A stretch of 64,000 nucleotides of DNA, from contig JAEPPZ010000009.1 of NCBI GenBank assembly GCA_017640785.1, positions 62,001-126,000 on the forward strand. The letters are read 5' to 3'. The stretch is from Balneola sp. Its GTDB lineage: Bacteria > Bacteroidota > Rhodothermia > Balneolales > Balneolaceae. The translations under genes and the position numbers were made by a program. Every line of letters begins with the position of its first letter. Within the stretch, counting starts at the first letter, position 1. Under the pieces are notes generated by a model. That model saw only the letters and a list, made by a program, of their open reading frames with translations. It made no database searches and was not told the origin of the DNA. Positions 5,487 through 61,826 of this stretch are shown one piece after another.

Positions 5487-5509
5487 AACCGTCTGTGTGA
5501 TTATATTTA

Positions 5510-5560
5510 ATCATTTGCTTAAATGATACATTGACTATATATTTAAGCAATCACTTAAAT
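5510..5560 (+). promoter_or_regulatory. Promoter and two palindromic operators of the mer operon
   Basis: TTGACT (5531-5536) lies 18 bases before TTAAAT (5555-5560), giving a recognisable -35/-10 pair. Two inverted repeats flank or overlap it: ATCATTTGCTTAAATGAT at 5510-5527 and ATTTAAGCAATCACTTAAAT at 5541-5560, the second covering the -10 box. Such A/T-rich dyads are typical ArsR/SmtB operators, so the regulator just downstream probably represses its own operon and is released by metal (family knowledge plus inference). Confidence 0.7.
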
Positions 5561-5569
5561 AAAATTCCT

Positions 5570-5950
5570 ATGAGTAAACAATCCTGTATTCGTGATGTAG
5601 CCGATCTGAACCAGATCAACCGCTGTATTGACTCCATCCATGCGGTAGAGTCATCCATCTTAAAACTCTCGGACATACTGAAACTGGCCGGAAATGATGT
5701 GCGCCTGAAAATTCTGTTCTTGTTGAGCACTGAGGAAGATTTATGCCCATGCGATTTGAGCGATATTTTAGATATGACCGTACCGGCGGTATCGCAACAC
5801 CTGCGAAAATTGAAAGACGCTGGACTTTTAGATTCAAGAAGAGAGGGAAAACTCATCTTCTATTCTCTGCAAGAACCTTATGACGAGCTTTTGAAACCAC
5901 TTTTCAACCAAATTGAAAACAATACCATTATGGAGGTATTAGCCGCATGA
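5570..5950 (+). CDS. ArsR/SmtB-family metal-sensing repressor of the mer cassette
   Basis: About 126 residues from ATG at 5570; an in-frame TTG at 5531 is rejected because it overlaps the -35 box. Winged helix with recognition helix TVPAVSQHLRKLKDAGLL and wing SRREGKLIFYSL. Metal-ligand candidates are Cys5 and the CPC of the EDLCPCDLSDIL segment. Its TGA stop overlaps the ATG of the next gene (ATGA at 5947). In Gram-negative model mer operons the regulator is MerR; an ArsR-type regulator is the alternative seen in some other phyla. It probably senses Hg(II). Confidence 0.88.
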   Translation: MSKQSCIRDVADLNQINRCIDSIHAVESSILKLSDILKLAGNDVRLKILFLLSTEEDLCPCDLSDILDMTVPAVSQHLRKLKDAGLLDSRREGKLIFYSLQEPYDELLKPLFNQIENNTIMEVLAA

Positions 5951-6573
5951 ACAAGCAGCAAAACAATAAAACTGACAATAGATGGCTGGGTGCGGGACTC
6001 GGAGTTGCATTTATCGCCTCCCTTTGTTGCATCACACCGGTACTGGCTATTCTGGCAGGTACAAGTGGTGTGGCCTCTACGTTTTCATTCATGGACCCAT
6101 TTCGACCTTATTTAATTGGGCTAACTGTTCTTTTACTTGGGTTCGCATGGTATCAAAAACTGAAGCCCTCAAAAGAAATCGACTGCGAATGTGATCCTGA
6201 AGAAGCCCGTTTTACCCAGTCAAAATCGTTTCTTGGCATCGTAACTGTTGTGGCGGTGCTGTTGCTGGCTTTTCCAAACTACTCTCATTGGTTTTTCACT
6301 GACGCTCAACCCGCTCAAATACAATATGTTTCCGAGGCAGATGTAGAACGTGTCACCTTTACTGTGAAGGGCATGACCTGCGCTGGGTGCGAAGCAAGTG
6401 TAAAAAATGAGTTAGGTAAACTGGATGGAATTTTGGAATCCGAGGTATCCTACGACAGTGGAACGGCTACTATTTCGTATCTGAGAACGAAGCTTACTGA
6501 AAAAAAACTTCAGGATGCGATCAATAAGACCGGATTTACTGCTAATGTTCAACAAGAGGAAGTAAACGAATAA
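5947..6573 (+). CDS. merT: MerT-MerP fusion mercuric ion transporter
   Basis: 208 residues. The N-terminal half is a MerT-type membrane domain with three spans and the metal-relay pair in ASLCCITPVLAILAG; a second Cys pair (DCECDPE) lies in the cytosolic loop. The C-terminal about 70 residues are a heavy-metal-associated domain (VKGMTCAGCEASVKNEL), equivalent to periplasmic MerP but fused. Imports Hg(II) for reduction. Translationally coupled to the regulator, 4 bases before merA. Confidence 0.9.
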   Translation: MNKQQNNKTDNRWLGAGLGVAFIASLCCITPVLAILAGTSGVASTFSFMDPFRPYLIGLTVLLLGFAWYQKLKPSKEIDCECDPEEARFTQSKSFLGIVTVVAVLLLAFPNYSHWFFTDAQPAQIQYVSEADVERVTFTVKGMTCAGCEASVKNELGKLDGILESEVSYDSGTATISYLRTKLTEKKLQDAINKTGFTANVQQEEVNE

Positions 6574-6577
6574 TAGG

Positions 6578-8215
6578 ATGAAAGAACTGGAACTGGACAT
6601 AGCTGGCATGACATGCGATCATTGCGCCGAGTCTATTGAAAAAAATCTATCCAAACTAAACGGAATACAGAAGGCGGTTGTAAGCTACCCCAAAGGAAAG
6701 GCAATGGTAGCATTCGATGATTCCACCCTTGATAAAGCATCGGTGATTGAAGCCGTAAATCAGACAGGAAAGTATCAGGTAGTGGGCGAATCAGGAAAAG
6801 AGCAATCTAGTGAAAACCATTACTCGTTGATTATTATCGGGGGCGGTTCGGCCGCTTTTGCTGCCGCTATCCGAACCAGTGAACTGGGGGGAACCACGCT
6901 GATTATCAATAAAGGTCTGCCAACAGGTGGAACGTGCGTAAATGTTGGGTGCGTGCCATCCAAAACGCTGATCCGAACAGCAGAAGACTTCCATAACGCA
7001 TCTCGTCCACGGTTTGAAGGGATAGAAACCACTGCAACCATCAGTGATTTTAAAAAAGTGATTGAGCAAAAACGGGAAATGGTTCGAGACCTGCGCCAGG
7101 AGAAGTATGTGAATGTGATAAAGGATGATCCAAATATTACCCTTATTGAGGGGTACGGAAAGTTAACCCAGGCAAATCAGGTCGAAGTTAATAACTCAAC
7201 CTATACCTCCGAAAACATTTTGATTGCCACAGGAGCTTCCCCGTTTATTCCGGAAATACCCGGACTCAAAGAGGCGGGATACCTGACTAATGAATCGGCC
7301 TATGAACTTGAGGAACTCCCAGAAGAGCTCGTCATTTTGGGTGGCGGATATATTGCTCTGGAAAATGCTCAGCTCTTTAGTCGGCTTGGAAGTAAGGTAA
7401 CGGTATTGCAGCGATCTGAACACGTGTTAAGTGATCAACCCAAAGAACTTGCAACGGCCTTGTCGGGATTTTTGGAAGAAGAAGGACTAACTATTTTAAC
7501 GAACACAGAGATTCTGGAGGTTATAAAATCAGACAAAAAAAGAAGCATCCGGTTTACGGTAAACGGAGAAGAAAGAGAACTTGAAGCTGATCAGATATTA
7601 GTTGCTACCGGCAGGCAGGGAAATACAGAGAACCTGAATCTTAAATCTACTGGAATTGACACCAAAGGACGAAATTACATTCCCGTTGATGAAACCATGC
7701 GAACCAAGACGTCCAACATCTTTGCCGCTGGCGATGTACTGGGCGAACGGCAGTTCGTTTATACGGCGGCCTATGAAGGTAAAATTGCGGCTGAAAATGC
7801 AATGAGAGAGAGTCATGAAAAAGCCGATTTTTCGGTCTTACCGTGGGTTATTTTCACTGATCCACAGGTGGCCGGAGTGGGCATGGATGAACAGCAAGCG
7901 GAAGAAGCGGGAGTCAACTACCAAGCAACGAAACTTACGCTGGACAATGTACCCCGATCCATTGCTGCAAGAGATACACGTGGTTTTATCAAGTTGATCA
8001 GAAACAAAGATAATGACCACTTGATTGGAGCTCGCATTTTGGCACCGGAGGGCTCGGAACTATTGATGGAACTGGCTATGGCTATTCGCCACGGGGTAAC
8101 CATTCAGTCACTTAAGTCGGAATTTCATCCCTACCTGACTCTTTCCGAAGGGATTAAGCTTGCTGCTCTCACTTTTGACAAAGACGTGAAGAAGTTGAGC
8201 TGCTGTGCAGTTTAG
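6578..8215 (+). CDS. merA: Mercuric reductase
   Basis: 545 residues; reduces Hg(II) to volatile Hg(0) with NADPH and FAD in the cytosol. Visible parts: N-terminal HMA domain (AGMTCDHCAES, Cys13/Cys16), FAD-binding IIIGGGSAA (about 86-93), redox-active GGTCVNVGCVPSK with Cys120/Cys125, NAD-binding LGGGYIALENA, FAD motif IFAAGDVLG, and the C-terminal vicinal cysteines (KKLSCCAV) that hand mercury to the active site and distinguish MerA from lipoamide dehydrogenase. Last gene of the operon. Confidence 0.97.
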   Translation: MKELELDIAGMTCDHCAESIEKNLSKLNGIQKAVVSYPKGKAMVAFDDSTLDKASVIEAVNQTGKYQVVGESGKEQSSENHYSLIIIGGGSAAFAAAIRTSELGGTTLIINKGLPTGGTCVNVGCVPSKTLIRTAEDFHNASRPRFEGIETTATISDFKKVIEQKREMVRDLRQEKYVNVIKDDPNITLIEGYGKLTQANQVEVNNSTYTSENILIATGASPFIPEIPGLKEAGYLTNESAYELEELPEELVILGGGYIALENAQLFSRLGSKVTVLQRSEHVLSDQPKELATALSGFLEEEGLTILTNTEILEVIKSDKKRSIRFTVNGEERELEADQILVATGRQGNTENLNLKSTGIDTKGRNYIPVDETMRTKTSNIFAAGDVLGERQFVYTAAYEGKIAAENAMRESHEKADFSVLPWVIFTDPQVAGVGMDEQQAEEAGVNYQATKLTLDNVPRSIAARDTRGFIKLIRNKDNDHLIGARILAPEGSELLMELAMAIRHGVTIQSLKSEFHPYLTLSEGIKLAALTFDKDVKKLSCCAV

Positions 8216-11932: not shown

Positions 11933-12310
11933 TTACCAAATATATGAGTCCCCCTCTCTTCTTACTTCAGAAGGGGTTCTTTGCTGTAGCAACATAGCTG
12001 CATTGAGTGCTACCAGATAACTATGAAATTGTTTGATTTTCTTTTGATCAAAATATTGAATGCAATATCCTGATAAATGATCTTTTAGCCTTTGGTCGTC
12101 AAAGTTTTCAGAGATTCTACTTATTGCTACAGACTTTATAAAAATATTTCTGGCTTCTTCCTCTAGAATAGATGTATCCAAAATGCGCATTAATTCTTGG
12201 GTACCGGCGTTAATGTCTTTTTTTCCTTTTGGGAAAAACTTATTAATTAGTTGTGAAAGCTCGTTATTCAAGTCATTCTTTTCTGGTTTAAAGAAATCAA
12301 ATAGTCCCAT
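11933..12310 (-). CDS. Hypothetical protein with MGLFDFFK start, first cassette gene
   Basis: 125 residues, helical, starting MGLFDFFKPEKNDLNNEL. No signal peptide; the hydrophobic, Phe-rich first eight residues may form an amphipathic membrane-binding or partner-binding helix. First gene after attI and therefore the one best placed for expression from the array promoter. Unknown function; the shared N-terminus with the next gene suggests common origin or a common partner. Confidence 0.7.
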   Translation of the reverse strand: MGLFDFFKPEKNDLNNELSQLINKFFPKGKKDINAGTQELMRILDTSILEEEARNIFIKSVAISRISENFDDQRLKDHLSGYCIQYFDQKKIKQFHSYLVALNAAMLLQQRTPSEVRREGDSYIW

Positions 12311-12567: not shown

Positions 12568-13533
12568 ATGGCTAAGTCTAAATTGTTGGAAGCGGTAAGG
12601 CGGGAAATAAGACGGCGTAACTACAGCTACAGAACAGAACAAAGTTATATCTCATGGATCGTAAGATTTATTCGGTTTAACGGAACCCGACATCCGTTAG
12701 ATTTAACAGATACAGAAGTAGAGCGTTACTTGAATTTTCTGGCAAACGAAAAGAACGTAACTTCATCAACTCAAAATCAGGCACTTTCGGCATTGGTATT
12801 TTTATATAAGCAGGTATTAAAACAACCGACACTTAAATTGGATAGCCTGAAAAGAGCAAAACCCAGCGAAACACTCCCCGTTGTACTATCTCCCGAAGAA
12901 GTAAAACAGATCTTGTCTCATATTTCAGGGATAAGCCATTTGATATGTACACTTTTGTATGGCTCAGGTTTGCGTATTTCAGAATGCTTGAGATTAAGGG
13001 TTCAGGATGTGGATCTGGAATATCAACAACTTTGGGTACGTTCTGGAAAAGGCAACAGAGATCGAGTAACCTTACTTCCAAAAAAAAGTGTAGGCGATTT
13101 AAAACGCCAGATTAAAAAAGCGAAATTGATTCATGATCAAGACATTAACAACGGACTTGGGAAAGCGCTGCTTCCAAAAGCATTAAGCAAAAAATATCCG
13201 GAAGAAAACATTCAGTTTCGATGGCAATATGTGTTTCCATCAAAAAGCCTGGCTAAAGATCCACGATCAGGCATACTGCACAGATACCACATCTCTTCCT
13301 CTTTGGTCAATAGAAAAATAAAGAGAGCGACAAAAAAAGCGGGAATTCAAAAGAAAGTATCTGCACATACTCTCCGGCATAGTTTTGCAACACATTTATT
13401 ACAGAATGGCTACGATATCAGAACGGTTCAGGAGTTATTGGGACATAAAAACCTCAAAACTACAATGATCTATACTCATGTCATAAATAAAGGCGGTAAT
13501 TACATCAAAAGCCCAGTAGATCTGCTAAATTAA
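12568..13533 (+). CDS. intI: Integron integrase
   Basis: 321-residue tyrosine recombinase. Arm-binding N-terminal SAM-like domain (YSYRTEQSYISWIVRFIRF). Catalytic residues: Arg in GSGLRISECLRLR, H-x-L-R in SAHTLRHSFATHLL, LGHKN, and Tyr in TTMIYTHVI. Between the catalytic boxes lies the extra segment found in IntI but not XerC/D (ALSKKYPEENIQFRWQYVFP), which contacts the extrahelical bases of folded attC. Its divergent position beside attI supports the call. Recombines attC with attI. Its last codons are duplicated about 960 bases downstream. Confidence 0.96.
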   Translation: MAKSKLLEAVRREIRRRNYSYRTEQSYISWIVRFIRFNGTRHPLDLTDTEVERYLNFLANEKNVTSSTQNQALSALVFLYKQVLKQPTLKLDSLKRAKPSETLPVVLSPEEVKQILSHISGISHLICTLLYGSGLRISECLRLRVQDVDLEYQQLWVRSGKGNRDRVTLLPKKSVGDLKRQIKKAKLIHDQDINNGLGKALLPKALSKKYPEENIQFRWQYVFPSKSLAKDPRSGILHRYHISSSLVNRKIKRATKKAGIQKKVSAHTLRHSFATHLLQNGYDIRTVQELLGHKNLKTTMIYTHVINKGGNYIKSPVDLLN

Positions 13534-15790: not shown

Positions 15791-16807
15791 TTAAGAATCG
15801 AATAAATCCTTATCATTGGCCTTTCTGTCAATTCCCAAATACTGATAGGCTTTTGCGGTAGCGACTCTGCCTTTCGGGGTTCGTTGTAAAAACCCTTCCT
15901 GAATTAAAAAAGGTTCGTAAACTTCTTCAATGGTTCCCTTGTCTTCTCCAACGGCAACTCCAAGCGTGCCCAAACCTACAGGACCACCGCTGTAATTTTC
16001 AATAATGGCGCGAAGCATCCTTATGTCCATATCATCCAGGCCGTTTGCATCCACATCAAGTGCGTTAAGTGCTTTATCTGCGATCTTTTTGTCGATCTCT
16101 TTGAGATTCTCAACCTGAGCGAAATCACGGGTACGGCGTAAAAGCTTATTCACGATCCGTGGAGTTCCCCGACTTCTGCGGGCAATTTCGTAAGCACCCT
16201 CATCCGTAATCCCGAAATTTAGAATACGGGCAGTGCGAAGCGCTATGTTATGTAACAGCTCTACTTCGTAATAATCCAATCGCATATCAATTCCGAAACG
16301 AGCTCGCAATGGAGCAGTAAGCATTCCTTTTCTGGTAGTTGCCCCAACCAATGTGAACCGACTCAATTCTATTTGAATGCTTCGGGCATTGGGACCGGAA
16401 TCAATTACGATATCCAGTTTAAAATCCTCCATCGCAGAATAGAGATATTCTTCAATAACCGGATTTAGCCGATGGATCTCATCAATAAATAGTACATCTC
16501 CATCTTCTAAATTTGTAAGCATTCCGGCCAGGTCGCCCGGCTTTTCGAGAACAGGCCCCGTTGTTGGGCGGATATTCACATTCATTTCCTGTGCGATGAT
16601 ATGCGATAATGTAGTTTTACCTAATCCCGGAGGCCCCGAAAGAATTACATGATCCAGAGCGTCGCCGCGCTGTTTGGCAGCTTTTATAAATACCTCAAGG
16701 TTGGATATTATTTTCTGCTGGCCGATAAACTCATCCAAACTGGACGGGCGTACAGAGTTTTCGAAAACGTCTTCTTTTTGCTCAGGATTTAGCAGAGGAT
16801 TATGCAC
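15791..16807 (-). CDS. ruvB: Holliday junction branch migration helicase RuvB
   Basis: 338 residues. AAA+ motor that drives RuvA-bound Holliday junctions. Begins [18 protein letters not shown], Walker [18 protein letters not shown], Walker [18 protein letters not shown], sensor [19 protein letters not shown] with the arginine finger region, and the C-terminal winged helix [20 protein letters not shown]. Full length. Same strand as metK, 76 bases apart. Confidence 0.99.
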
Positions 16808-48253: not shown

Positions 48254-50272
48254 ATGAGTTGCATCAAACTACGAGTAAAGCTAGATCAGACAATTGATTC
48301 CGTTGGAGTAAGTACTCCCACTTTGAATAACGCTGAAAACCCAATGTGGAGTTTCCTGCATACCTTTTGCTTCGAGTATCCACTTGGGCGGTGGCATGGA
48401 GCGATTCAGGAAATTAATACATCCAACGCCTCAAGTAATGAAATCATAATTCCCACCAAGTTAGCAACTAGTCTTGGGCTGAATGAGGATGATAAAGTTA
48501 ATCTATCCATTAGCCATTATGATGCAATTAATACAATGCAGGTTGAAGAACTATCTCCAAAAAAGAGCGATAAAATTCCCACCCTTTGCGAGGGATTAGA
48601 GCTTAACACTCAATGCACTTTTCACTGGGAAGGAAAAACCTTTAAGGTGTTATCCAATGACCCTATTCAAGGATACTTTACCTCAGATACAACGGTGGAG
48701 GATCTTACTGAATCAGAAGATGGAACTGCTAGCAAGGTTATAACTTTTCAGAAGAATCAAGTTCCTGAAAAAAATAGGGGTTTCAATAAACTTGTTGGGG
48801 TAGACTGCACGATTGAGGAAATCAAAAAGAAGATACTTTATCCAATAGAAAACCCAGAAATAGCCCAGAAGTATTTGGGTGCACCTTTAAAGGGTGCCAT
48901 ATTATATGGGCCTTACGGTAATGGTAAAACTTCATTAGCTCGTGCCATATCGGAGGAAGCTAATTTAAATTTCGTTCATCTCCCTGTATCCGACACTTCG
49001 AGTATGTTATTTGGTCCAAGTATTATTAAGCAAGTATATGATACTGCTTCCAAAAACGAAGAAGGAACCATTGTATTTATTGATGAGATTGATTCGGTGG
49101 CTCCAAGAGGAAGTGAGGGATCTACTCTTACATCAACTCTTCAAGAATGCATGGATGGCTTCTCAAATAATAATGTATTCACCTTAGCAGCGACAAACCA
49201 TCCCAACAATATTGCTGAAGGCTTAATGAGGAGTGGAAGATTTGATCTAATCATTCCCGTACCACTACCAGATGTTAGTTCCAGAGAGAAACTCTTACGA
49301 TTTTATCTATCTCCGGTCGAACATGAACCATTAATGAACCTGTCATCACTGGCATCAACAACCAGCTCATACACAAGTTCAGATATAGAAAGTGTCGTAA
49401 AAAGTGCAGGATTAGATGCGCTTGAACGGGCATCTATAAGCGACAGCACCACATTAATTACCCAGGAAGACCTTGAAAAGAATATTCAGGCATTTACTCC
49501 TACTGGAGCTCGAATTCTTAATGTTAGTAAACCTGACCTCTGTTTTAGAGACCTATATGGAATGGAACCGTTCATTACCTCACTTAAGAAAAATCTTGAT
49601 TTGATAAGTGGAAAAACCCCCTCCAGGTACAGCAAAATTAAAGGATCAAAAATGTTACTCTCTGGGCCTCCGGGAACCGGAAAAACCAGTATGGCAAAAG
49701 CTATTGCACACTATCTTGATGCAAGTTTTGTTGCAAGATCAGCTACATCGTTTAAAAGTAAATGGGTAGGTGAAACAGAGGCATCAATTCGTAAACTATT
49801 TACAACGGCAAGGATGTATAAGCCTATTGTACTATTCATCGATGAAATAGATGCTTTAGCTAAGGGTAGAACCTCAGATAATCCACATAGTGCTGACGCC
49901 CTAAATGAGCTATTGGTTCAGTTAGAAGGGTTTGCTGACAATACCGACATATATTTCATTGCGGCAACGAATCGAAGAAACCTGTTGGATAGTGCCTTTT
50001 TGAGTAGGATGAATTATGAGTTCGAAATGCCCCTCCCAAATACACTCCAGCGTAAGCAGATTTTGATTGGGCTCATGGATGGACTGCCCACCAAAGGTAG
50101 CCTGGATTATGAATCACTTGCTAAAGATACAGAGGGACTCTCACACCGTGATTTAAATGGATTAGTTGGGCTAATGCGTGTAAAACTTGATTTGGGTGAA
50201 ATTCATAAAGTAACCCAAAGATCTATATGTGCCCTACTAGATGGATCCCGCCAGACAAATGGAGGTCTATAA
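48254..50272 (+). CDS. Cdc48-like tandem AAA+ ATPase
   Basis: 672 residues. The N-terminal about 110 residues resemble the double-psi-barrel N-domain of Cdc48/p97 (NEIIIPTKLATSLGLNEDDK). AAA1: ILYGPYGNGKTSLARAI (note N in the P-loop), TIVFIDEIDSVAPRG, and SGRFDLIIPVPLP. AAA2: LLSGPPGTGKTSMAKAI, IVLFIDEIDALAKGR and AATNRRNLLDSAFLSRM. Cdc48 proteins extract or unfold proteins. A mobile element carrying one is unusual; it might remodel a replication or defence complex. Overlaps the next gene by 1 base. Confidence 0.9.
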   Translation: MSCIKLRVKLDQTIDSVGVSTPTLNNAENPMWSFLHTFCFEYPLGRWHGAIQEINTSNASSNEIIIPTKLATSLGLNEDDKVNLSISHYDAINTMQVEELSPKKSDKIPTLCEGLELNTQCTFHWEGKTFKVLSNDPIQGYFTSDTTVEDLTESEDGTASKVITFQKNQVPEKNRGFNKLVGVDCTIEEIKKKILYPIENPEIAQKYLGAPLKGAILYGPYGNGKTSLARAISEEANLNFVHLPVSDTSSMLFGPSIIKQVYDTASKNEEGTIVFIDEIDSVAPRGSEGSTLTSTLQECMDGFSNNNVFTLAATNHPNNIAEGLMRSGRFDLIIPVPLPDVSSREKLLRFYLSPVEHEPLMNLSSLASTTSSYTSSDIESVVKSAGLDALERASISDSTTLITQEDLEKNIQAFTPTGARILNVSKPDLCFRDLYGMEPFITSLKKNLDLISGKTPSRYSKIKGSKMLLSGPPGTGKTSMAKAIAHYLDASFVARSATSFKSKWVGETEASIRKLFTTARMYKPIVLFIDEIDALAKGRTSDNPHSADALNELLVQLEGFADNTDIYFIAATNRRNLLDSAFLSRMNYEFEMPLPNTLQRKQILIGLMDGLPTKGSLDYESLAKDTEGLSHRDLNGLVGLMRVKLDLGEIHKVTQRSICALLDGSRQTNGGL

Positions 50273-52506
50273 TGAGCCAGTCTAATTTTTTCTTTTACAG
50301 CCGATACATTACACGCTTAAGTGCGGAAGACAATCTAAATAGTAAATTTCCATTAGTTGGTGATTCACCTTTTGGGGATGGACTTATCGAAATCAAAGGT
50401 GATGGAAACTTCCGGTGCAAAATGACCAATATAAATGGAAATAAGGAAAACTTTCTTAGACACCTTTATCCTTTACTTACTCAGGAAGGCATTGAAAGGG
50501 CAATTCGTTTTGAGGCAAAAGACCTTGATGAATTAAGTTTAGAGCAGTATCAAAGCAAGAAAACTAAAGTAGATTCCGAGGAGTATAAAACTGAATTTAG
50601 CTATTTGACAGGATTAGCACCCCAGACTTTTGATGGGGTATGGTTGGACAGTATCACTGAGGAGTTTTACGCATATGAAGTAGGTGCTATTAACCATCCT
50701 ATTTGTAGGTATCAGTGGAAACATGGAGATCGAAAAGATACCATATTGGGGACTCCAAGGATTCAGAAAGTTGATAGTAAACGGCTCTGGTTTACTAAAA
50801 ACCATTTTGAAGCCAACGAACTAAAAAAGCTTATTGATGATCCAGTGTTCGTCAGACCAAATGCTGATGCGCTAGGCTGGAATGATTATCAGACACTGGT
50901 TAAGGGGAAAGAAGTGATCTGTTTAATCGGTGATGAGAAAGGGAGCTGGAGATATTCCTTCTATCCTTTTTTGAAACAGATAAAAACATCAGCTTCTAGC
51001 ATTGCAACAGTGTATCTCTCTCCACTACTGGGTGATGATGCTCTTGCAAAGCACTTGAATACTAAAAGCATCCGTCTTATCCAAGACACTGCCCAAAAGC
51101 TGCTTGGAGAATCCCTCTTGATAATTGCTGAACATATCTACAATGAGTTCACTAGCCAGCGCCAGCAAAACACATTGTATTTTCCTCAAGATCTAAATAG
51201 CAATCTATTTTGGTATGGGCTAGCTGACGGACACATGGTTCATTCTTCCCCAATAAATATTTTCTCAAAAGAAGAGCTTGAAAGCAAATATTCTATTACT
51301 ACTCATGTCTACCCTAGCTCTGATATCCGTTTGACTAAGAAAGAAGTCTTAAACATTATTTCATCAAGCAGTCAGCTTACCCCACTAAACACTTTTCACC
51401 AAATCAGAAAATTTTTTGTCAAGTATGTCTATTTTGAACATAAGCAGCACACTACATTATGTACACTGTGGGTGTTAGGGACGTATATCTACCAGTTATT
51501 TCCTGAATTCCCTTACCTCCATCTTATGGGACATAGAAATTCAGGTAAAACTACCCTGATGGAAATAATATCAGAATGTAGTTTTAATGGGCTACGTGAG
51601 TCGCAGACAAGTAAAGCAAACCTGATTAAAAATATCCATGAAATAGGATCAACGGTGTGTTTGGATGAGTTTGAGCCTAATTCTAAAGGCACGGAGGATC
51701 AGTATATCCAAATGCTCAAGTCTGGTTACCGAAAGGGGGGAAATTATTCTAGAATGACAGGTAAAAAACAGGAATCTACGTTAAATGTATATTCCCCTAA
51801 AATTTTAGCTGGAGAAAGTAATATTGCCAATGAGGCCCTTAAATCTAGAGTTATTCAGATTAAAACACAGACAAAACCGTTAGGTGCTTCTTTGAGACTA
51901 TGGGACATAGAGGCTTCTAAAAACATAAAAACTTCAAAAATAATACGCCGTGGAGGTTATGCTCTTGGGTTACATCATCACCAAAGTATTAAACGAAATT
52001 ACAATCGCATCCACCCTGAGATCCACCTTCCCAGTGGTACGATGATTGGCTCCAGAAAGCGTCAGTTGGTAGCACCTTTGTTGTCAATAGCCCGTTTATT
52101 AGATACAGGGCAGGGTTCTACAAATGTTGAAGATGAGCTCCTTACCGCTGTAGAAATTTCATGGAATGAGCAGTTCGCTATTCATAATAAGGCGGCAAAG
52201 CTTTTATACGAACTTTTAGAGAAATGGAATAAGGATTCATCTTTCAAAAGGTATAAGGTTGATTCTAAATATCTATGGATTAGCAATAAAGTCTGGTTCA
52301 ACACAGAGTTGGCAGAGTATTTGGGTTCTAAAGATGCGGTACTAAAATGGTTTGAGAACTTAAGTGGTATCAATAAGGGATCAACACACTTTAAGTATGG
52401 TGGGACTGACGGAACTGGTGATTCTGAGGGATACACAAAATTTCCTCTCAATCTAAAAATAAAAAATATTACTATCGGTGAGATCTTTAGACGTAAAACG
52501 CCCTAA
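50272..52506 (+). CDS. P-loop ATPase of the mobile element (replication-helicase-like)
   Basis: 744 residues from ATG at 50272, which shares an A with the upstream TAA and has GGAGG 6 bases before. N-terminal half without a known fold. ATPase core: LMGHRNSGKTTLMEIISE (Walker A), TVCLDEFEPNSKGTEDQ (Walker B) and an arginine-bearing ANEALKSRVIQIKT. The order matches SF3/D5-like or DUF927-type element helicases, but the exact family is not settled. Coupled to the Cdc48-like gene. Confidence 0.75.
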   Translation: MSQSNFFFYSRYITRLSAEDNLNSKFPLVGDSPFGDGLIEIKGDGNFRCKMTNINGNKENFLRHLYPLLTQEGIERAIRFEAKDLDELSLEQYQSKKTKVDSEEYKTEFSYLTGLAPQTFDGVWLDSITEEFYAYEVGAINHPICRYQWKHGDRKDTILGTPRIQKVDSKRLWFTKNHFEANELKKLIDDPVFVRPNADALGWNDYQTLVKGKEVICLIGDEKGSWRYSFYPFLKQIKTSASSIATVYLSPLLGDDALAKHLNTKSIRLIQDTAQKLLGESLLIIAEHIYNEFTSQRQQNTLYFPQDLNSNLFWYGLADGHMVHSSPINIFSKEELESKYSITTHVYPSSDIRLTKKEVLNIISSSSQLTPLNTFHQIRKFFVKYVYFEHKQHTTLCTLWVLGTYIYQLFPEFPYLHLMGHRNSGKTTLMEIISECSFNGLRESQTSKANLIKNIHEIGSTVCLDEFEPNSKGTEDQYIQMLKSGYRKGGNYSRMTGKKQESTLNVYSPKILAGESNIANEALKSRVIQIKTQTKPLGASLRLWDIEASKNIKTSKIIRRGGYALGLHHHQSIKRNYNRIHPEIHLPSGTMIGSRKRQLVAPLLSIARLLDTGQGSTNVEDELLTAVEISWNEQFAIHNKAAKLLYELLEKWNKDSSFKRYKVDSKYLWISNKVWFNTELAEYLGSKDAVLKWFENLSGINKGSTHFKYGGTDGTGDSEGYTKFPLNLKIKNITIGEIFRRKTP

Positions 52507-56749: not shown

Positions 56750-57106
56750 GTTGATAGGATTGGTTAAGATTAGTAAAGGCGGTAAAGGCTTTCACTGTTC
56801 TTATACCAGATTTTAAAAGGTATCTACGTTTATTCAGCCGGTTTTATGAACTTTATACTGAAGCTGATTGGTACTTACAAATTCTAAAAAAAACCAATCC
56901 ATTAAGATAGGCACATAAGATGCTTTTCACTATAAACTTTAAACGTAAACTGATGTTCATACTTGGTTATTAATTCTCTTTTATTCATCTTATCCTCAAT
57001 ATTTTGATAAAAAACCAATAAAACCTACAGATGTAATAGGGATAACATGAACTCAGTGCGTGCTATCCCGTTGTTATGCACAAGTGAATGAACTCATTTT
57101 AAAAAT
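56750..57106. other. Non-coding stretch with a degenerate attC-like end
   Basis: A/T-rich and without a gene. Near its right end AGGGATA (57039) and TATCCC (57064) pair around a 19-base loop, and the sequence ends with the R box GTTATGC (57073-57079). The left R box is not clear (TGTAATA instead of an RYYYAAC), so this is either a decayed attC or a secondary site used for cassette insertion. Confidence 0.55.
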
Positions 57107-57763
57107 ATGAAGACTTATCAAAATTTAGAAATACACTTAGACCCATCAGAAAATTCAATTTTTTTGGAGGATCTAAGTGATTTAATAAAAAGATCCGATT
57201 GGAAACAGAGACAAGATTTTGTCGATAATTATAAGAAGAACACCTTTGGTCAAGACAAAAACATTTTGTGTGTCGAAACACCAGAGTATTCTTTTAAAGA
57301 TAAAACCATTAAAGGAGCTGTTTGGATTTGGGACTACAATGCTTTCCTAGAAGTTTTCAACATTATACCACTAATCGGAAATAGCTTGACCTATGACCAA
57401 TATAATTTTCTCATAAATGAGTTTAACGATAAGTTTATAATAAACTTAGCTGCTAAATATAATGGCAATGTAAAAATAAGTGATCCAGAGAAGAAATTAA
57501 TTAACACTATTGGTGAAGACGCATACAAAGCTCTTGAATCCTTCTCCCATAGTGCGAACAAAACTACGGGAAATACCCATCCATTTGATTTTAAACGTTG
57601 GTGCGATTTCATTTTTATCATCTTCAGAAAAAAAATTGAATTAAACGTAGATGAGCTGATTGTATGGTTAGAGGAAAACGGTTGGGACAGTGATATGGCA
57701 AACCGATTAGGTTTAGAATTTGAATACTCATTAAATCTTTTAGAGAATTATGAGCGAGATTAG
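57107..57763 (+). CDS. Hypothetical protein paired with a PIN-like gene
   Basis: 218 residues, soluble, alpha-helical: MKTYQNLEIHLDPSEN at the start, IWDYNAFLEVFNIIPLIGNS in the middle, and ELIVWLEENGWDSDMANRLG near the end. No family recognised. It overlaps the following PIN-like gene by 14 bases, so the products are made together; an antitoxin or specificity role is possible. First gene of a cassette-like unit that starts with GTTATGC at 57073. Confidence 0.7.
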   Translation: MKTYQNLEIHLDPSENSIFLEDLSDLIKRSDWKQRQDFVDNYKKNTFGQDKNILCVETPEYSFKDKTIKGAVWIWDYNAFLEVFNIIPLIGNSLTYDQYNFLINEFNDKFIINLAAKYNGNVKISDPEKKLINTIGEDAYKALESFSHSANKTTGNTHPFDFKRWCDFIFIIFRKKIELNVDELIVWLEENGWDSDMANRLGLEFEYSLNLLENYERD

Positions 57764-58481
57764 AGGTAAAGATGCTATATCTATAGATGATTTTGTTTCG
57801 ACAGTATATTCCGAAAACAAAAGACCTTTTTTGTTTTGGGATACGTGTTCATTATTAGAAATCATTCGATTTCTATATCGTAAAGGTAATGTAGAAACTT
57901 ATCGTATTTTAAACACAATCAATGGGTTAATTCAATCAGACGAACTAATATCTGTGGCTTCATCATTAACTATAGTTGAATGGAACAATCATCAAAATGA
58001 TGTTATTAATGAAATCAAAACATCCCTATTAAAAACAGGAGAATATCATAAGAACTGCATTGAAACAATAAATCAAATCAATCCTCGAGCTTTAAGCTCT
58101 GAAACCATTCACGACAAGCAATTGGTTGAAGATTTGGAACGTTTGGCGGATGATATTATAACAAAAACCTATTTCATAGAAACAGAAGAAATTGCAGACA
58201 AAGCTCTTCAACGAGTTTCTTTAAAAAAGGCACCTGCGAGCAAGAAAAATGAATTTAAAGACTGTGCCGTTTGGGAAACAATGATCTTATTATCAGAAAG
58301 AATAAATTCAGTCAGCCTACCTGAAGATGAACATAACAAAATATTTTATTCAGTAAATACCGATGATTTTGTTGATAAATCTAGAGAGCCAAGATTATTT
58401 CATCGTTCATTACTAACAGAAGCTGCTGCAGTCGATTTTAGTTGCTGTTCAACTTTAAATGAAGTAAACTTAAAAATATAA
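57750..58481 (+). CDS. PIN-like domain protein (candidate RNase toxin)
   Basis: 243 residues. The PIN-like pattern of acidic residues is visible: FLFWDTCSLLEIIRF (first Asp), an intermediate VASSLTIVEWNN (Glu), FKDCAVWETMILLSE (Asp followed by an active-site-like Glu) and KIFYSVNTDDFVDKSR (C-terminal Asp pair). PIN domains are metal-dependent RNases. The 14-base overlap with the preceding gene suggests a two-protein defence or toxin unit. The cassette's attC follows 8 bases after the stop. Confidence 0.75.
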   Translation: MSEIRGKDAISIDDFVSTVYSENKRPFLFWDTCSLLEIIRFLYRKGNVETYRILNTINGLIQSDELISVASSLTIVEWNNHQNDVINEIKTSLLKTGEYHKNCIETINQINPRALSSETIHDKQLVEDLERLADDIITKTYFIETEEIADKALQRVSLKKAPASKKNEFKDCAVWETMILLSERINSVSLPEDEHNKIFYSVNTDDFVDKSREPRLFHRSLLTEAAAVDFSCCSTLNEVNLKI

Positions 58482-58488
58482 AACCTGT

Positions 58489-58621
58489 GCATAACAATGG
58501 GTATAAAACATAGGTTGGACGGTACTTTTCGCAAGTTTTCGGCACTTAACAAGCTCAGTTTCAAACGGACAGTTAAAAGCTTCGAAATGCCCTACGTTTC
58601 ATACCCGAGATCGTTGGGGGC
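58489..58621 (+). repeat. attC-like site closing the PIN cassette
   Basis: R boxes GCATAAC (58489) and GTTGGGG (58615) enclose strongly paired arms GGGTATAAAACATAGG and CCCTACGTTTCATACCC. TGTGCATAAC is the exact reverse complement of GTTATGCACA at 57073, the first bases of the same unit, as required for a recombined integron cassette. 133 bp. Confidence 0.85.
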
Positions 58622-58634
58622 AATTAAAAAATAA

Positions 58635-59318
58635 ATGAGCTCATACAGAGTCATAGACAGAATTCAGATTGAGCCACATATCTTGTTCCTCAGGATTGAG
58701 CCAACCGATATTAAGTTAACTCTTGGTGATATTTTCAAATCATTGTCCGATATTGCTTGGATAAGTGATTTCGACAAGAAGTATATAAGGGATGCGTTCA
58801 CAATACGTGCTACTGAAACAATTAATTATATAGCTGATAATATTATTGCTGAGACTGATGATGAAATAACTAAGGACTCAGGTGAAATTGTTGTTTCGGA
58901 ACTAGCACGATTAGCAATAGTAAACGAAAATAATTACTTAGATATACCATTAGCAGAGCTTTTTAAAAGCCAAGCATCAGGAAATGATGGCTTTGACTTT
59001 TACTCTAAAAATCTCACTAAAATCATACTATTTGGTGAGGCTAAATTTCTTTCTGATCGCAATGCTTATGGGAAAGCTTTTAATAAAATTGTTGAATTTG
59101 TAGGCTTAGAACAAGACTCATCTGATTTACAAGATATCGATAAATTTTACTGTGCGGAGTCTTTAGACAATCACTCCAATGGAAAGAAAGGATTTATGGC
59201 TGCCTTTTCCAGCAAAAACACAGACACTGATAGAATACTTAAAGGAATAAAAGCGAATACTGACTTTAATGCCCTTAAGGGGTTTGATGAGCTAATCTGT
59301 GTTGCAGTCAACGTATGA
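58635..59318 (+). CDS. hamA: Hachiman defence protein HamA (DUF1837)
   Basis: 227 residues. DUF1837-type nuclease: SELARLAIVNENNYLDIPLA (conserved Glu89), SGNDGFDFYSKN (Asp121) and IILFGEAKFLSD (Glu135/Lys137), the PD-(D/E)XK core seen in HamA. Known Hachiman: HamA is a nuclease held inactive by the HamB helicase and released when HamB senses phage DNA disturbance. It starts 14 bases after an attC. The TGA stop overlaps the hamB start (ATGA at 59315). Confidence 0.9.
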   Translation: MSSYRVIDRIQIEPHILFLRIEPTDIKLTLGDIFKSLSDIAWISDFDKKYIRDAFTIRATETINYIADNIIAETDDEITKDSGEIVVSELARLAIVNENNYLDIPLAELFKSQASGNDGFDFYSKNLTKIILFGEAKFLSDRNAYGKAFNKIVEFVGLEQDSSDLQDIDKFYCAESLDNHSNGKKGFMAAFSSKNTDTDRILKGIKANTDFNALKGFDELICVAVNV

Positions 59319-61636
59319 ACAATGCAATAAAAAATATCATTGGTGCCGAGAATATTGGCGATATAGTATCTTTTGTTTTAGACCGAATTTATAAGAATGG
59401 GCCAGTGTCCACAACTGATATGGAAATTCTTTCTTATTTAAAACTTTATAAACCCGAAGAATTCAATCTTCATCAGGAAAGGGTTTTGCACTACATGGGT
59501 CTTTTTTACAAAGATGTTAAGCCTCAGTCATTAAAAGAAGTTGTATTCAGGCAATACAGAAGGCATATTATTGAGAATTTTCAACACACATATACGCCCG
59601 TACAAGCAAGTATTATTAGTGAAATTGAATCAAATAAATGCTTTAGTTTTTCGGCACCTACTAGTACAGGCAAGTCTTATGTTTTCATGAATCTTATTCA
59701 AGAAAGCACGGATGATATTGTCATTATAGTTCCTTCAAGAGCACTTATTAACGAGTATTATCACAAGCTCAATAAATTAATTGATAACAAATCTGTAAAT
59801 ATTTTAACCTTTATAGACAAGATCAATACTAAACATGCAGAACGCAATGTATTCATAGTTACACCTGAAAGATGCAGGGAGTTATTTAAGTTTAAAGAGC
59901 AATACCAAGTAAATACATTTCTATTTGATGAGGCTCAACTGAGTAATGAAGACTCAAAACGAGGATTATATTTTGACAGTATTGTAAGAAGGGCGCAAAA
60001 AGCATTTCCTGACTCGACATTTGTTTTTGCCCATCCTTTTGTTGCCAATCCTGATTCCCAAATTAAAAAGAATCACTTTGAATCAGATTCATCAAAGTCA
60101 GTCCAGTTCAAGCAAAAAAATGTTGGACAATTATACCTCTGCTCAGATCGTGATTGGAATTTCTATCACTTCGGAATTGACAAATCTATAATGGGCAATA
60201 TAAAAGAGCCATGCGACTTTGACCCCATTAAAAGAACAATAAAAAACGATGGCTCTGTACTTTTCTATGTTTCAAAAAGCAAAATCTACAATAAGGGATT
60301 TCTAAATCAATTTGAAAGATACATCAACTTATGTTCTGAAATTGAAGGTGAGAAAATCGATTCCTACATAGAACAGTTAAAAGAATATACAGGTGGAGAT
60401 ACGATAGCAAATAAAAACTATTATTCTCAATTACTAGCTTTATTAAAAAGAGGTATAGTTATACACCATGGCTCTTTACCTCTTCAAACAAGGTTAATAC
60501 TTGAAAAATTTACACAAGATGGATTGTGCAGAATTTGTTTTGCAACATCTACGCTGGAGCAAGGGGTAAATATGCCCTTTGATGTAGTGTTTCTAGATAG
60601 GTTACAACGAAGCAAACCTTTATCGGTTAAAAATCTCATTGGACGTGCAGGAAGGTCTACTACTTCTAATGAATTTGATTTTGGCTACGTCATAATAAAT
60701 TCACCTACAAAAATGTCCGCATTTCGCCGTATAATTGTCCAAGATGAAATATTGGACGAAGAATCTTCACTTGAAAAATCAGAACAAAAGGATGATGATT
60801 ATAACGACTTTAAAGAGGCAATTTTAAAAGATACTTACTCTGATGAATTCAATCTAACTGAAAAAGACTTAGATAAACTTACTTCAGATTCCAGTGAGGA
60901 AGTAATTAAACTTTTATTGGATAGCATATTTGATGAAAATCAAAATATAATCCCACTTAGTACAATAAACTTAGATCTCAGAAATAGGTTAAGCCTATAC
61001 TCTTATTTTAGAAGTTTATATTCAATTTACTTAAATCGTCCGCTCGGAAGAGGCGAAACCAATGTTTTAGATACCGCCATAAAAATAGTTATATGGCAAG
61101 TTCACGGTAAAACCTTTAAGAATATTTGTTGGTTTCGCTATTCGCACGCAAGTAAAACAAATGAACGAGCGCGCTTAGAAAGGTTAGGAAGAAGAACTGA
61201 CGACATTGCGCCAAACTTTATTACAGGATACAGTCCTATCCCTGACAAAAGCATACCTGTTTATAGCATTTTTCAAGATGTAAAGAGAGCATCTGATGTC
61301 GATTATGATCTAATAATGACAGACACCTATGACTATATTGACAAGTTAATTAGCTTCAAATTAACGGATGTTTTTTATGCATCATTTATAAAATATTTTC
61401 AAAAGGAGAATGACCCTCGAGCTGAGAAACTTGCTAAGTTTATTAAATATAGTACTGATAACGAAAAACATATATGGATGCTTCGATACGGTATGTCATT
61501 TGAAGACATTGAAAAATTAGAGCCCCATATCCTTTCTATTAATGCTGAGGAAATAGTTTTTAAGGAATCGATTTTAGAAGTACCAAGGGAAGAAAGAGAA
61601 TCAATTGAAAGATTTATTAGAATACAAACAGAATAA
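59315..61636 (+). CDS. hamB: Hachiman defence helicase HamB
   Basis: 773 residues. Ski2/SF2-like helicase: Walker A SFSAPTSTGKSYVFMN (113-121), VTPERCRELF, DEAQ box TFLFDEAQLSNE (205-208), later HHGSLPLQTRLILEKF, FATSTLEQGVNMPFDVVFLD (motif V) and LIGRAGRSTTS (motif VI). Standard stop TAA. Together with HamA forms an anti-phage system. Both genes lie between attC-like sites. Confidence 0.92.
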   Translation: MNNAIKNIIGAENIGDIVSFVLDRIYKNGPVSTTDMEILSYLKLYKPEEFNLHQERVLHYMGLFYKDVKPQSLKEVVFRQYRRHIIENFQHTYTPVQASIISEIESNKCFSFSAPTSTGKSYVFMNLIQESTDDIVIIVPSRALINEYYHKLNKLIDNKSVNILTFIDKINTKHAERNVFIVTPERCRELFKFKEQYQVNTFLFDEAQLSNEDSKRGLYFDSIVRRAQKAFPDSTFVFAHPFVANPDSQIKKNHFESDSSKSVQFKQKNVGQLYLCSDRDWNFYHFGIDKSIMGNIKEPCDFDPIKRTIKNDGSVLFYVSKSKIYNKGFLNQFERYINLCSEIEGEKIDSYIEQLKEYTGGDTIANKNYYSQLLALLKRGIVIHHGSLPLQTRLILEKFTQDGLCRICFATSTLEQGVNMPFDVVFLDRLQRSKPLSVKNLIGRAGRSTTSNEFDFGYVIINSPTKMSAFRRIIVQDEILDEESSLEKSEQKDDDYNDFKEAILKDTYSDEFNLTEKDLDKLTSDSSEEVIKLLLDSIFDENQNIIPLSTINLDLRNRLSLYSYFRSLYSIYLNRPLGRGETNVLDTAIKIVIWQVHGKTFKNICWFRYSHASKTNERARLERLGRRTDDIAPNFITGYSPIPDKSIPVYSIFQDVKRASDVDYDLIMTDTYDYIDKLISFKLTDVFYASFIKYFQKENDPRAEKLAKFIKYSTDNEKHIWMLRYGMSFEDIEKLEPHILSINAEEIVFKESILEVPREERESIERFIRIQTE

Positions 61637-61643
61637 AAACTAC

Positions 61644-61703
61644 CCCCAACAAGGTGTATAGTGCATGCCCTGCGGGACACGCACCATAGCCCAACCGTTA
61701 AAA
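61644..61703 (+). repeat. attC-like site closing the Hachiman cassette
   Basis: R boxes CCCCAAC (61644) and GTTAAAA (61697), exactly 60 bp like classic 59-base elements. The inner hairpin GTGCATGCCC / GGGACACGCAC pairs. CCCCCAAC is the exact reverse complement of GTTGGGGG at 58615, the start of the Hachiman unit. Confidence 0.83.
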
Positions 61704-61826
61704 TAATTCCTAAACCTGTCCAAAGCCAGCGCATTTAGCGGACACGCCTCCTCAATTTAGATACTTCCCTCCTTTTTTTGGTATAAGAACAGTGTTAACA
61801 AAACACTAATTATTAATCCAATACAA

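Follow-up and report, generated by a model that had tools for sequence, protein, structure and literature searches.

Integrons carry their genes as cassettes in tandem arrays beside the gene of the recombinase IntI; each cassette has its own trailing imperfect hairpin, the attC site, with complementary R'' and R' boxes, and is joined to the next at a G^TT junction. In the free circle of a cassette, one attC is assembled from two halves, the first bases that follow G^TT and the R'' box of the trailing attC. From IntI-attC structures, an extra domain of IntI is taken to read extrahelical bases of the folded site. Phage defence genes were reportedly described in Science in 2025 as cassettes of chromosomal and mobile integrons, these being IntI integrons. 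Passages of three articles (PMC9024848, PMC9668308, PMC3108266) state that integron surveys require the IntI-specific domain; two of them (PMC9668308 and PMC3108266) cite Messier and Roy 2001 for its being necessary for activity, and a passage of PMC9024848 reports integrons to be rare in Bacteroidetes. We analysed 64,000 nucleotides of Balneola sp. (contig JAEPPZ010000009.1, positions 62,001 to 126,000), hereafter the window, in which the hamAB genes of a Hachiman anti-phage system quite probably form a cassette of a second integron-like system, called R2, composed of a recombinase of ~280 amino acids (aa), an attI-like 34-bp palindrome and attC-like hairpins. It would resemble those IntI integrons in carrying defence genes, on a different platform. 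The cassette is made up as follows.

58614..61697, plus strand: hamAB cassette, 3,084 bp, from the T after G^TT through the G before the next TT
58635..59318, plus strand: hamA-like gene, 227 aa, named by synteny with hamB and a GNDGFDF..FGEAK motif
59315..61636, plus strand: hamB, superfamily 2 (SF2) helicase, 773 aa (PADLOC HamB, 1.9e-57; PDB HamB 8vx9, 3.4e-11)
61643..61703, plus strand: attC of the hamAB cassette, short R2 type (covariance model, 67.1 bits; fold)

The cassette start GTTGGGGG (58613-58620) was found by sequence check to be the exact reverse complement of CCCCCAAC (61643-61650), and extended versions of the two strings occur once each within the window. Since both ends rebuild one attC in the circle, an intact cassette should show just this exact complementarity. 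The preliminary description of this DNA had already proposed an excisable integron-like cassette bounded by exact reverse-complement strings, the first placed at 58615, and by two attC-like folds. The sequence evidence supports such a cassette: the junctions are G^TT, and the bounding sites fold as attC-like hairpins at 58487-58619 and 61643-61703. What had been missed is that the preceding 1,540 bp are also a cassette, with complementary ends GTTATGCACA and TGTGCATAAC. Both cassettes stand next to a putative recombination platform:

56902..56988, minus strand: remnant of the R2 recombinase gene, N-terminal 28 codons, divergent (MNKRELITKYEHQFTFKVYSEKHLMCLS*, aligning with intact R2 N-termini of relatives)
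57039..57072, plus strand: attI-like site, a 34-bp imperfect palindrome ending at GTT, a motif common to R2-type loci
57074..58613, plus strand: preceding cassette, two overlapping genes, ends GTTATGCACA (57073) and TGTGCATAAC (58486)
57107-57763 and 57750-58481, plus strand: genes of the preceding cassette, the second with a PIN_12 domain (PF16289, 7e-12)
58487..58619, plus strand: attC of the preceding cassette, long R2 type (stem6 - A.C - stem4 - A.C - stem), its paired boxes free of mismatch

The 270 bp to the left of the first cassette, which comprise the divergent gene start and the palindrome, have many copies in related genomes. The attI-like motif is present in 30 of 32 R2-type loci, in most of them with an invariant 34 nt up to GTT. 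With two sites and a truncated recombinase, the window copy has the arrangement called CALIN (at least two attC sites, intact adjacent integrase absent). The preliminary description was right to see the packaging of hamAB as its notable part, and the platform provides stronger grounds for this than it had.

Comparison of sister genomes located the boundaries of such arrays. The R2 locus on contig C4 of the same Balneola genome is 97.8% identical to that of the sister genome G002 over 2.66 kb, up to the attI-GTTG boundary. Past this point G002 holds an unrelated array of 3.8 kb, and identity resumes exactly at GTTACTCCACC (also given as GTTACTCC), at 96% over 5.2 kb. In a second pair (L104 and L105, 98.1% identical), identity likewise reaches GTTG and then diverges. 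By alignment, then, arrays have been exchanged between sister genomes exactly at GTT, next to the recombinase gene and its attI-like site.

The hairpins of 23 R2-type sites follow one plan: an R stem of 9 bp, spacers of 3 and 5 nt, an L stem of 6, an A.C mismatch, a stem of 4, a second A.C mismatch and an upper stem. When eight short sites were rebuilt with their own cassette starts, 92% of cells were paired and 12 pairs showed compensatory changes on both sides; none of 500 shuffles matched either the paired percentage or the covariation score. These counts were made on ungapped short sites, because a MAFFT alignment of the stitched arms shifted rows. A covariance model (CM R1) built from eight short R2-linked sites, window excluded, found the hamAB attC at 61647-61700 (67.1 bits, E 5.6e-14), the next match in the window reaching ~14 bits, and matched none of the attCs of the IntI array in the window. 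It also found this site type at the R2 loci L103 and L104 and at other R2-type loci, these being among its building sites; L079 was not among them. A structural signature scan returned exactly two sites in the 64 kb of the window, those that bound hamAB (0.2 expected from shuffles); it also gave 19 sites at family loci (0.4 expected) and a single one at the Xer loci, while IntI loci had none. As the signature was read from the 23 sites, both window sites included, it is the covariance model that tests the window independently. A simple attC regular expression with adjacent R''/R' pairing had failed, since the R' after a site belongs to the next cassette. An Rfam search found no family for these sites, its sole match being to tRNA.

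The exact 9-mer of the cassette start was found as its reverse complement at the downstream end in 16 of 32 loci, versus 36 of 980 (3.7%) when starts were swapped. This test and others replaced a more lenient one, which gave 28 of 31 against a swapped background of 39%. Hairpins are common after genes, and terminators or repeats could flank the two genes by chance. No tool result favours this, and it can hardly be the explanation here: R'' changes together with a cassette start that lies kilobases away, model and signature select only these sites, and the occurrence of attI-GTT and attC-GTT as breakpoints between sister genomes largely refutes it.

Folding was used to compare the strands. The bottom strand was the more stable in 22 of 23 sites (mean -20.5 versus -17.1 kcal/mol), because A.C becomes G.T there, and the hamAB attC, which has the A.C mismatches, behaves in the same way. 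A bottom strand predicted to fold better is also a feature of integrons. The folded bottom strands differ from theirs, however, in having A.C/G.T pairs instead of extrahelical single bases, and an R stem of ~9 bp: six R2-type sites had no single-base bulge, whereas four attCs of the IntI array in the window had 2-5 each. Bulge-free hairpins would fit an enzyme that has no such domain for reading extrahelical bases.

Sunxiuqinia and Maribacter aquimaris (L026 and L027) also carry hamAB as a cassette, and there the two ends have changed together (GTTAGGGGC/GCCCCTAAC, as against GTTGGGGG/CCCCCAAC in the window), a further point in favour of the excisable cassette. Homology with four other hamAB loci starts and stops at or within a few bases of the cassette limits, except for L027, where it extends into both flanking attC-like sites. 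The Hachiman assignment made earlier stands by profile for HamB. Its 227-aa partner had no Pfam or PADLOC profile match and no PDB sequence match, and its AlphaFold model (pLDDT 44) was unusable; we call it hamA-like because it adjoins hamB in six loci (41-78% identity) with an invariant nuclease-like motif, GN.GFDF...FGEAK. HamA of Hachiman systems is a nuclease of the DUF1837 type. The pair resembles Hachiman in its HamB and in the adjacent protein with a nuclease-like motif, and departs from it in a HamA too divergent for Pfam or PADLOC and in a short HamB. Elsewhere, cassettes inserted at the attI-like site contain type III (L085, L104) and type II (L105) restriction-modification, CBASS with 4TM or STING-TIR effectors (L096, L100), ATPase-Toprim (L103), PDC-M38A with Mrr (L106) and DUF262/HEC-06-like genes (L109).

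Intact R2 proteins of relatives are tyrosine recombinases of ~280 aa with invariant catalytic residues. In alignment they are ~43 residues shorter than IntI4 where IntI holds its extra domain; R2 scored 209 bits against TIGR02249, under the cut-off of 265, and its best NCBIfam match was recomb_XerA_Arch. R2 thus lacks the IntI-specific domain by which surveys define IntI (PMC9024848, PMC9668308). It has the length of the Xer recombinases (XerC, XerD, XerA), which also have no insert, but differs from them in its link to cassette arrays and in grouping with IntI rather than with the XerC/D-like enzymes of the same genomes (support 99/98 in one tree and 100/99 in another). Within this group, R2 would be either the sister of IntI or its paraphyletic stem (R2 group support 80/53). 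Across the phylum, an R2 profile (E <= 1e-65) found homologues in 116 of 392 genomes and 79 of 178 genera. On a Persicobacter megaplasmid (L193, 8001-16360), two attC sites of R2 type, at 12184 and at 16236, come after R2. Several draft contigs (L170, L173, L176, L182) end near the R2 gene, as expected if the genome holds several copies of the adjoining att sites.

The preliminary description had linked the hamAB cassette to the canonical integrase of the window:

12568..13533, plus strand: canonical IntI of a separate integron, whose array lies at 2.2-12.4 kb on the minus strand (TIGR02249, 433 bits; IntI-specific domain present)

The two cassettes could then be ordinary integron cassettes, captured by this resident IntI at a secondary, attG-like site of the island; the enzyme is present in the same genome, and IntI enzymes tolerate diverse attCs according to a general statement in a passage of PMC8618304. 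The insertion point, however, bears an attI-like site and a recombinase remnant seen at many other R2 loci, and by covariance model and bulges the hamAB site is unlike those of the IntI array. Among 88 relatives, the short site was present in 9 of 14 R2 genomes versus 4 of 74 others (p = 2e-6) and showed no association with IntI (p = 0.55), these p values being only a guide since the genomes are linked by descent. In two genomes (G005, G017), R2 loci carry cassettes and IntI was not detected. Capture by IntI therefore seems improbable, the earlier link is not borne out, and the hamAB cassette probably does not belong to the IntI at 12568. Between cassettes of the array of this IntI, plus strand genes at 5500-8215, opposite to the array direction, resemble a metal (mercury) resistance set, as judged from sequence only.

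The module formed by the R2 remnant, the attI-like site and the two cassettes occupies a gap of variable content, bordered by radC and a DUF932 gene, and splits an inverted repeat:

56793..56808 (left half) and 61779-61794 (right half), no strand: perfect 16-bp inverted repeat flanking the inserted module

In the relative L007 the gap is empty, and the repeat halves are near each other in the interval from radC to the DUF932 gene; in L009-L011 the gap holds other genes. Downstream, the island contains UmuC, SRAP, a type I restriction system (HsdRSM) and KwaB, and runs beyond the window (L169, G000:C18:126001-145900). The earlier suggestion that hamAB lies inside another mobile element is plausible, as the module lies in this variable gap of a defence-rich island; no relaxase was seen in the island downstream of the module. 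Elsewhere in the island (48254-52506), an IetA-like AAA ATPase followed by a large gene may be an IetAS defence pair.

One R2 of the genome is intact; it lies on contig C4, and its two cassettes measure 1,067 and 2,402 bp. A second R2-type cluster of this genome (L111, G000:C11:148000-160000, at 6900-7960) comprises two cassettes with an attI-like site, at which an R2 gene was not seen. The window copy may be a fossil, its two cassettes once mobile and now fixed cargo that moves only with the island. The truncated R2, the mismatched L box of the hamAB attC and the location in a cargo hotspot of the island agree with this, whereas the cassette ends are still perfectly complementary and the same genome has an intact R2 whose site type is related. 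We consider such fixation possible rather than probable; it is compatible with an origin through R2.

For an R2 origin of the cassettes, the following mechanism is proposed. The attI-like palindrome ending at G^TT, divergent from or adjacent to R2, would receive cassettes that end in attC-like hairpins. R2 would most likely cut the folded bottom strand of attC at G^TT, within the R box, and join it to the attI-like site, as IntI does. Preference for the bottom strand would come from the two conserved A.C mismatches, which turn into G.T wobbles there, and these wobbles would replace the extrahelical bases read by the extra IntI domain. The window copy would be a stranded cluster of two cassettes with its own R2 broken, either served in trans by the C4 R2 or now fixed, and hamAB would act in defence.

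Several observations weigh against the R2 assignment. Recombination by R2 is itself deduced from sequence. The L box of the hamAB attC has broken pairs, and the hamAB loci of M. luteus and Hanstruepera (L028, L029) keep the left end, with the trailing attC lost or degenerate. In half of the attI-anchored loci the exact 9-mer is absent, whether by decay, by truncation or because the start was called wrongly. Such attCs occur in four genomes in which R2 was not detected, and five R2 genomes are without the short type. Support for the R2 group itself is low, in a tree that had no outer IntI taxa. Finally, a recognisable site was present within ~7 kb in only 4 to 5 of 20 R2 loci sampled across the phylum, so that the link between R2 and cassettes applies to some of these loci only.

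Beyond the hamAB cassette, we lean, with less assurance, towards a broader proposal: R2 would be a second class of integron, whose recombinase is a sister of IntI that never had or has lost the IntI domain, with bulge-free attCs, wide distribution in the phylum and many multi-gene defence cassettes, and it would be the 'xerD/TnpF' found beside tet(X). Its 34-bp palindromic attI-like site and its cassettes of up to 5.7 kb with multi-gene defence systems also set it apart from integrons. The 'xerD/TnpF' beside tet(X3)/tet(X5) on Acinetobacter plasmids (L191, FJ012881, 5019-7040; L190, NZ_CP044520, 4516-7415) belongs to the R2 family of recombinases (52% identity over 227 aa). The interval from its gene to tet(X) contains a palindrome with GTTATGTGCC after it, and 3' of tet(X3) there is a possible truncated R2-type attC arm; tet(X) may be an R2 cassette. 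R2 would have been overlooked since integron surveys require the IntI-specific domain. NCBI already labels some R2-type proteins 'site-specific tyrosine recombinase/integron integrase'. A literature search, with subscription papers outside its reach, found no description of the R2 system, nor of Bacteroidetes cassette systems without the IntI domain.

If the broader proposal is true, a domain-less relative of IntI that runs cassettes would explain the reported rarity of integrons in Bacteroidetes. It would offer a natural test of the role of the IntI domain, namely whether it reads extrahelical bases or folded single strands as such, and the origin of IntI from Xer-like enzymes would become directly testable through an apparent relative without the insert. 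A large reservoir of mobile defence genes, including type II and III restriction-modification, CBASS, Hachiman and DUF262, would also come to light.
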